Assembly: GCF_004684245.1 (NCBI RefSeq)
Contig: NZ_CP038452.1
Location: forward strand, 1,102,796-1,166,795
From: Thermus caldilimi
Lineage (GTDB): Bacteria > Deinococcota > Deinococci > Deinococcales > Thermaceae
Length of the DNA stretch: 64,000 nucleotides
Direction of reading: 5' to 3'
Position numbers and translations under genes: made by a program. Below, piece after piece: positions 16,691-19,185 of the stretch; position 1 is the stretch's first letter, and the number at the start of each line of letters is the position of its first letter. A model generated the notes under the pieces. It had not been told where the DNA came from and did no database searches. It worked only from the letters and a program-made list of their open reading frames with translations.

Positions 16691-16694
<4 letters not shown>

Positions 16695-18379
16695 ACCTCC
16701 ACCAGCTGCCCTAAAGGGGCCAGCACGCGGCTGGTGCCCGGGGCCTTTCGGTAGGCCTTCAGGGCAAGCTCAGCCAGCCCCTTGGTCCCCAACCCCAGGC
16801 GGTACACGCCCGGGAGGAGGAAAAGAAGGTAGTCCAGGGGCCTTTGCGGCAACACAGCTCCCCAAAAGTCGTAGGCTCTGACCTCCACGGGCAGGAAGTA
16901 AACCCCCTTGTCCCCGGCGAAAAACCGGAGGGGAAAGGCCTCAGCGTCCACTCCCACGCCGTTGGGCAGGTGCTGGTACACCTGTCCCTGAAGGTGCAGG
17001 ACCGCCGGCTCATCCAGCACCAAGGCCACCTCCACCGCCTCCCCGTCCCAGGAGATCAGCTCCAGCTCCTCGGGGAGGTCGTCCATGGGTACCGGAGAGC
17101 CCAAGCCCATGAGCTTCTCGGGCGGTAAGAACTCACTCCGGGGAAAAGCGGGGTCGGCCATGAAGCGGCGCCATCCCAGCAAGGATTTGGCCCATACCCC
17201 GGTTTCTAGGGGCCGCCTGCTGGCCTGGCGATGGTACGCCTCCGCCACCGCATCCCCTGTTCCATGGAAAAAGTCCGCCAGGCGCCCGTGCAACCTGAGC
17301 CTTTCCCCGGGAGCAATGCCCGAGCAAAGGTAGCGGCGGAACTGAGGCTCGGCCAGGCGGTACCGGCCCTCGGTAAAAACCAGCCACCCCCGGTGCTCCA
17401 GCTCGTCCAAATGGGCCTCGACCCCCAAGGCCTGCGCCACCTCCGGCGGGAAGGAACCGGGGTGCAGCGACAAGGCCTCCAAGGCCCTCCGGGCCGCCTC
17501 GGGCAGGTGGCGAGCCTCGAGGGCCACCATGGCCCGCACCCGCTGGGGCAAGGCCTCAGGGTCGTCCAGGGCCAGGAGTTCCTTGAGGATCTCCGGGCGG
17601 CCGCCGCTTTCCAGGTAAAAGCGGGCCGCCCGCTCGAAGGAGAGGTTCCGCAAGTACCCCCTGCGCACCTCGCCCCAGGCCAGCCGCGGCACCTGAAGAA
17701 CCCGGGTAATCTCCGCCGGGAAGCGGGTTCGCAGGGCCAGCAGGAACGAAGGGTCCTCGCCAAAGGCGCTGCGGGCCACCACCAGGACCTGGCCGGAGGT
17801 GGGGCGGAGCCTAAGGGCCTCCTCCTTTCCAGGGAGGGGGTCACTCAGGTAAAAGACCCCAAGGCCGCTTCCCAGCCCCTCCCGGAAGGGAAGGCCCAAG
17901 CTCTCTGCTAGGGCCCGGGCCAAAGCCTTACGACCGGATCCCGGCGGCCCCATCAGCACCACCAGGGCCGGAGGACGCACCTCCTTGAGCCTTTCCGGAA
18001 GGGGCAAGGCCTCCTTGGGGACCTCCAGGCGCGCCCTCACCGCCTGCAGCCACCCGGTGAACTCGGGGGAGAGGTCCTCGAGGCCCTCCATCACCTCCCC
18101 TACCCCGGGGCTCCGGTCCAGCTCCACCCCAGGGGGGAGCTCCAAGACCCTACCCCTAAAGGCCTCCCTCCCGAAAAACCCCCGGAGGTGGGTGAGCTCC
18201 ACCCGGAGGTTCTGCAAGGCCGCCCCGTGGCCCCAGAGGAGGTCGGCCAGCTTCTCCCTGCGGGTGGGCCCCTCGAGGGCCAGGTAATAGAGGATGCCTA
18301 AGGCCTTCCGCCGCAAGGAAAGGGGCCCCGAGGGTCCTTCCGCCCGGGCAGGGCCGTATAGGGGCAACCGGACCTTCAT
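16691..18379 (-). CDS. SARP/BTAD-like transcriptional regulator with degenerate P-loop
   Basis: About 562 residues from the ATG at 18379; a GTG at 18388 is the alternative start. Residues 20-90 form a winged-helix DNA-binding domain of the SARP/OmpR type (LSLRRKALGILYYLALEGPTRREKLADLLWG...LRVELTHLRG). An ATPase-like middle follows, then helical repeats (EARHLPEAARRALEALSLHPGSF) and a beta-rich C-terminus. The P-loop reads GPPGSGRKA, with Arg in place of the Walker Lys, so ATP use is doubtful. It is divergent from the gene at 18637; the gap carries repeated TTAACG boxes likely bound by this protein. Target functions are unknown. Confidence 0.65.
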
Positions 18380-18391
18380 CGCTCTCACCCT

Positions 18392-18510
18392 CGTTAATCC
18401 AACCGTTAAGAAATCTTTAAGGAGATCCTCACCTTCTACCTTAAGCTTAACGCCCTCAAACCAACCCCGTGTCAGAAAAGCACATGGCCCCCTTAACGCT
18501 CCCTTAACGC
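18392..18510. repeat. Five TTAACG boxes in the SARP-like regulator's divergent promoter region
   Basis: TTAACG occurs on the + strand at 18447-18452, 18493-18498 and 18504-18509, and as its complement CGTTAA at 18392-18397 and 18404-18409. The two boxes nearest the rightward gene are part of the tandem CCTTAACGC (18491-18499 and 18502-18510), an exact 11-base period. The two inverted boxes nearest the regulator are 12 bases apart. SARP regulators are known to bind direct repeats with about 11-base spacing, so this is a good candidate operator set for autoregulation and for the divergent gene. Confidence 0.6.
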
Positions 18511-18636
18511 CCCACGGGAACCTATACCCTTAGCCTGGATCCGGCTATCCTGGACAAGCTACAAGAACCCGGGGAACCCGTATCCCTGGCCCTGGAGCCC
18601 GGTCCCCTGCCCCAGGTCCTTCTTTCCGCCCGGCCG

Positions 18637-19185
18637 GTGGTGCGGGAAATCGTGCGCACCCTCACGGAGGAAAGCCTGGCGGTGGTCCTCCTGCCCCTGC
18701 CCGCGGTGTTGCCCCCGGGGGCGGAGCTTCCCCTCCGGGCCCAGGTGCAGGGAGGCCCCACCCGGGTCTGGGCCGAGCTGGAAGGGCGCACCTATGCCCT
18801 GAATCCCCTGGAGGAAGGGCTTTACGGGGCTTACCTCCCCGTGGAGGGCCAGGGGAGCCTGGAGCTGAAGGTGGTGGCCGAGCGGGGTGAGGAGCGGGCC
18901 GAGGCCAGGGCCTACCTCACGGTGCGCCCCGGCCCCCTGGCCACCCTCCTCGCCACCCCCGCCCTCTTGGACCCCGGGGAGGAGGTGCGCCTCGAGGCCC
19001 GCCTCCTCCGCCGGGCAAACCGGGTGGAGGTGCGCCTCGGACCCCTCATCGTCCCCTTGGAACGGGTGGACGACCTCACCTTCCGCGGCACCCTCCTGGC
19101 TCCCAAGACCCCAGGAGCCTACGAGCTGGAGCTCTACCTGGACGGCACCCGCACCGCCACCGCCCGCATCCGGGTGCGGGACTAG
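18637..19185 (+). CDS. Beta-rich protein of unknown function, start uncertain
   Basis: At least 182 residues from the GTG at 18637, but the open, coding-like frame reaches back to the stop at 18505-18507 (PTGTYTLSLDPAILDKLQEPGEPVSLALEPG...). No ATG, GTG or TTG occurs in that 5' part; a CTG at 18535 lies seven bases after a TATACC box (18523-18528). The C-terminal region looks like two Ig- or fibronectin-like beta domains (LLDPGEEVRLEARLLRRANRVEVRLG, TPGAYELELYLDGTRTATARIRVRD). There is no signal peptide in the visible frame. The function is unknown. Control by the divergent SARP-like regulator is likely. The stop overlaps mobA's by four bases. Confidence 0.6.
   Translation: MVREIVRTLTEESLAVVLLPLPAVLPPGAELPLRAQVQGGPTRVWAELEGRTYALNPLEEGLYGAYLPVEGQGSLELKVVAERGEERAEARAYLTVRPGPLATLLATPALLDPGEEVRLEARLLRRANRVEVRLGPLIVPLERVDDLTFRGTLLAPKTPGAYELELYLDGTRTATARIRVRD

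Follow-up and report, generated by a model that had tools for sequence, protein, structure and literature searches.

The gap upstream of regulator A in the 64-kb window (the whole 64,000-nucleotide stretch of Thermus caldilimi DNA analysed here) is probably, at about 0.8, a divergent operator-promoter bound by that regulator, which would activate a divergent operon in related species and regulate its own gene; in this genome the right-hand pair of boxes would be a relic. This reading is drawn from sequence comparison. The features in the window are as follows.

16691-18379, minus strand: regulator A; the ATG at 18379 is the likelier start, and a GTG at 18388 is possible
18392-18397, minus strand: left box 1, TTAACG on the minus strand, nearest the regulator start
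18404-18409, minus strand: left box 2, TTAACG on the minus strand, 12 bp from left box 1
18415-18420, minus strand: left box 3, decayed (CTTTAA on the plus strand), 11 bp from left box 2
18447-18452, plus strand: middle box, TTAACG within AGCTTAACGCC
18461-18477, minus strand: weak 11-bp repeat CCAACC...TCAGAA, from the gap alignment, with the spacing judged by eye
18490-18499, plus strand: right box 1, CCCTTAACGC, TTAACG core at 18493-18498
18501-18510, plus strand: right box 2, CCCTTAACGC, 11 bp from right box 1, TTAACG core at 18504-18509
18510-18513, no strand: deletion junction with CCCC microhomology, from comparison with relatives
18511-19185, plus strand: 3' remnant of operon gene 6, comprising the final 222 codons for its 953-aa secreted protein and lacking a start of its own

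A word search of the whole window found TTAACG or CGTTAA five times, always inside 18392-18509, as the sequence-only reading had reported in counting five boxes within about 120 bases. Its description of the two outer groups also holds: the right two boxes are exact copies at an 11-base period, and the left two are inverted and 12 bases apart. Dinucleotide shuffling of the gap, taken as 134 bases long, gave on average 0.11 boxes over 20,000 rounds, and neither five boxes nor an 11-bp pair was obtained even once. Genome-wide word counts, derived from pattern searches of the single 2.45-Mb contig, gave 145 copies of TTAACG versus 45 of the reversed word. The search for 11-base pairs that had been proposed as a check returned only two exact TTAACG-N5-TTAACG pairs in this genome, not many random occurrences. 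All five boxes are confirmed, and chance falls far short of explaining them.

The gap alignment shows the array at the orthologous position in nine other Thermus species, all with the divergent operon, which answers the earlier question of whether the boxes are conserved. In its full form, the array runs from CGTTAA-N6-CGTTAA-N5-CGTTAA beside the regulator through a plus-strand TTAACG in the middle to TTAACG-N5-TTAACG on the right, with TTCACG substituting for TTAACG in some species. The position of left box 3, decayed in the window, holds an exact CGTTAA in four relatives, and the middle box is kept in every operon-bearing relative. Where the window has the weak repeat at 18461-18477, the relatives have GTCAAA/GTGAAA repeats; whether this is a functional element is uncertain. 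Identity was 95% in box columns versus 62% in the other columns, and when six hexamers were placed at random in 20,000 trials, the observed box identity was never reached (permutation p < 5e-5). The 27 Thermus genomes counted contain 39 direct TTAACG pairs with a spacer of 0-24, 25 with a period of 11 bp, 8 with 12 bp and 6 with another period. The array thus contains direct repeats at the 11- or 22-bp period of SARP-type operators, and the 11-base period that had been attributed to SARP operators agrees with the published description (PMC10936776). Across Thermus, the conserved layouts are directed at the regulator on one side and at the divergent transcript on the other. Four genomes depart from the pattern: G013 retains the regulator and has lost both operon and boxes, G015 still has partial boxes next to a diverged regulator, with the operon absent, and deletions in G001 (loci L085/L092) and G020 (L086/L091) have left only the regulator 3' end and the gene 6 tail, with the boxes gone.

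In all nine of these relatives, a TAnnnT hexamer resembling a -10 element (TAGGGT, TAGCCT, TACCCT, TAACCT or TAAGGT) starts exactly 10 nt past right box 2, and it is followed by a purine-rich Shine-Dalgarno sequence, e.g. AAAGGAGGTG, and then by the start of a secreted protein. As in SARP-type operators, the 3' repeat therefore stands at a fixed short distance before the -10, which in the window is deleted. The first three of the six operon genes encode secreted proteins (about 270, 245 and 225 aa), and they are followed by genes for a protein of 261 aa, a secreted protein of 157 aa and a final protein of 953 aa with SdrD_B-like and carboxypeptidase-regulatory-like domains; the order and spacing of the six suggest a single transcript. 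Thermus caliditerrae and T. tenuipuniceus are examples of species that carry the operon.

The sequence-only reading had proposed control of a divergent gene, which it called unknown. The relatives do have a divergent target operon; in this genome that target has been deleted. About 5.8 kb is missing compared with genome G003, namely the TAnnnT -10, the Shine-Dalgarno sequence, the start, genes 1 to 5 and three quarters of gene 6 from its 5' end, and the CCCC at the junction occurs both in the promoter and inside the gene. A search of this whole genome for the first operon protein gave no match. What is left is a C-terminal part without signal peptide, 90-91% identical to gene 6 of the closest relatives. 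The right-hand reading frame was taken as 18508-19185, and we considered whether it is a self-standing gene; this was rejected, since it matches the last 222 codons of gene 6 and the operon is deleted at CCCC. With the -10, Shine-Dalgarno sequence and start lost and an in-frame TAA inside right box 2, the supposed gene is an incomplete 3' remnant of the deleted operon. The right half of the operator is thus probably a relic facing a gene fragment in this genome, where only autoregulation, through the left cluster, could still operate.

Regulator A begins with a SARP-type winged helix (residues ~1-90), followed by a stub of the first BTAD helix (~95-118), an ATPase-like region and a C-terminal region. 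Its first ~118 residues are 42% identical to the N-terminus of a 981-aa BTAD regulator of the same genome (tblastn E 4e-9), whose BTAD is clear (E 7.5e-15) and which also carries an AAA domain; regulator A thus carries the N-terminal OmpR-type DNA-binding domain (ODB) by which SARPs are recognized. The alignment of the two proteins stops in the first BTAD helix, and the P-loop of regulator A begins at about residue 140, which leaves room for the first BTAD helix only. No BTAD follows the ODB: a Pfam search found no BTAD match in regulator A, while the same search detected the domain in another regulator of the genome (E 7.5e-15). Pfam Trans_reg_C likewise gave no match in regulator A itself, and matched 2 of 12 relatives weakly (0.0074). 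A PDB profile search with the regulator N-termini gave weak OmpR-type matches only (SaeR, E 0.35), and the AlphaFold model, built on an alignment of five sequences only, had a pLDDT of 48 and is unusable for the BTAD question. The Walker A motif is degenerate (GPPGSGR, residues 144-150), with arginine instead of lysine, which makes ATP binding by regulator A doubtful. The earlier assignment to the SARP type therefore stands for the DNA-binding domain and fails beyond it, where there is only the BTAD stub and the degenerate Walker A. On its sequence, regulator A is a SARP relative without BTAD that would act like a SARP, and we do not class it among the canonical members. Full-length relatives with ~43% identity are present throughout Thermaceae. 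In other Thermaceae genera (L142-L147, L151, L152, L155, L157), many of the gaps at these relatives keep CGTGAA-N6-CGTTAA followed by GTAACA, perhaps the ancestral form of the operator.

Related modules were found at other loci.

L062:9411-16613 (G000:C1 about 1709400-1716600): paralogous module of regulator and operon, whose boxes read GTAACG
L137:6771-10813 (G000:C1 about 244770-248810): locus of the BTAD SARP and a fabH-like gene
L138:7717-9060 (G000:C1 about 2405700-2407060; also L139, L127, L129): lipoprotein locus with three GTAACG boxes, kept in many Thermus genomes

In the first, a regulator ~45% identical to regulator A faces a homologous operon, whose promoter has GTAACG-N5-GTAACG with TAnnnT 10 nt on. 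The large final gene of this module is frameshifted in a C run in this genome, by a real mutation or a sequencing error. In the second, the BTAD SARP of this genome stands divergent to a fabH-like gene or operon that has an 11-bp GTAACG-N5-GTAACA repeat and TAACCT 9 nt on; the ATG lies just past TAACCT, as expected of a leaderless transcript, and an exact GTAACG pair is found at the fabH-like gene in several other species. The third is unlinked, and its three boxes, with periods of 8 and 11 bp, lie where a TPR-protein gene ends, upstream of the lipoprotein gene. At G000:C1:288503-288568 (L113), GTAACG occurs four times in steps of 20 bp. An 11-bp CGTTAAGG pair lies between the speA 3' end and a membrane-protein gene, oriented against the downstream gene (G000:C1:1652570-1652586, L055; also L036, L039, L043, L044, L046, L047, L049, L050, L052 and L060).

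In the mechanism that we propose, two or more regulator A monomers would bind side by side on the right TTAACG repeats of the relatives, on one face of the DNA. The protein would thereby cover the -35 region, 10 nt upstream of the TAnnnT -10, and might recruit RNA polymerase to a promoter without a good -35, activating the six-gene secreted-protein operon in a SARP-like manner. The oppositely oriented boxes at the regulator start would serve autoregulation; a search for a -10 lying 10 nt behind the left cluster gave none that was consistent. In this genome, the ~5.8-kb deletion has taken the -10, the ribosome-binding site and almost the whole operon, leaving a left cluster that may still autoregulate. 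We infer the identity of the binding protein, the activation and the sign of autoregulation; the proposed side-by-side binding and polymerase recruitment at the right repeats draw on the conserved geometry and the paralogous cases. Against the mechanism stand the partial boxes of G015, whose operon is absent, the lack of a -10 at the conserved place beside the right pair of the window, the left cluster with no consistent -10, and the speA-side pair. More broadly, it is reasonably likely that a Thermaceae lineage of SARP-type regulators, BTAD-less and with a degenerate ATPase domain, assembles on tandem 11-12-bp repeats and so switches operons of secreted surface proteins, and that its duplicated modules diverged in box word, TTAACG versus GTAACG.

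Other explanations were weighed against this mechanism. The boxes might be bound by a different Thermus DNA-binding protein, such as a global factor or another paralog, with the adjacent regulator acting elsewhere. The speA-side pair speaks for this, as about a dozen Thermus genomes keep it, some of them lacking regulator A, and the word is therefore not exclusive to this regulator. However, the box clusters follow the regulator A locus and the paralog locus, each with its own variant (TTAACG and GTAACG, respectively), and in G013 the boxes disappeared along with the operon, which makes this explanation unlikely. Still less probable is full function of the boxes in this genome, with 18511-19185 expressed from them as a new short gene, and we give this little credence: the frame is open over 225 codons and the boxes are exact, but the junction has no start codon with a ribosome-binding site, right box 2 has the in-frame TAA, the window has no TAnnnT at the conserved distance from the right pair, and the fragment is a C-terminal part that lacks a signal peptide. 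As for an A+T-rich word clustering by chance in an A+T-rich gap, TTAACG is rare in this G+C-rich genome, and gaps, being more A+T-rich, are enriched for it; the gap shuffles and the conservation in nine species nevertheless rule this out.

To our knowledge, SARP operators have been studied almost only in actinomycetes, and no description of such operators in Thermus was found in the literature searched. Here the SARP geometry appears in a different phylum, next to several members of one regulator family, and the target is of another kind. The paired TTAACG and GTAACG modules offer a natural test of recognition-helix specificity in proteins of thermophiles, and the absence of a BTAD would probe whether this domain is needed for side-by-side binding.

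Several known systems can be compared with the Thermus array. Operon protein 4 (261 aa) weakly resembles the WxL-interacting proteins of WxL/WxLIP surface systems: WxLIP was the top Foldseek match, at a TM of 0.38 from a low-confidence model (pLDDT 60), and a paralog matched Pfam WxLIP_PGBD at E 0.0031, below the cut-off. Those systems differ in that no WxL domain was detected in the other operon proteins. DnrS, the denitrification regulator of Thermus thermophilus, is likewise a Thermus regulator annotated with a BTAD; according to the parts of its description consulted here, this BTAD is C-terminal, behind a GAF domain, and those parts do not describe a repeat operator (PMC5748679). The large SARP AfsR (ODB-BTA-NOD-TPR) shares with regulator A a winged helix of the SARP type at the N-terminus and an ATPase-like part towards the C-terminus, whereas in regulator A the BTA is cut to a first-helix stub, the Walker A lysine is replaced by arginine and no TPR match was found. 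In the published description of SARP operators, direct repeats recur every 11 or 22 bp and the 3' one lies 8 bp before the -10 (PMC10936776), and PimR has operators with three and with two repeats (PMC5930380), the three-repeat form resembling the Thermus array. The Streptomyces cases AfsR/afsS and PimR/pimM share with Thermus the 11-bp direct repeats over the -35 region (PMC10936776, PMC5930380). In Thermus the distance to the -10 is 9-10 nt, the box word is TTAACG or GTAACG, regulator A is without the full BTAD of the Streptomyces SARPs, and the target is a secreted-protein operon in place of antibiotic genes.
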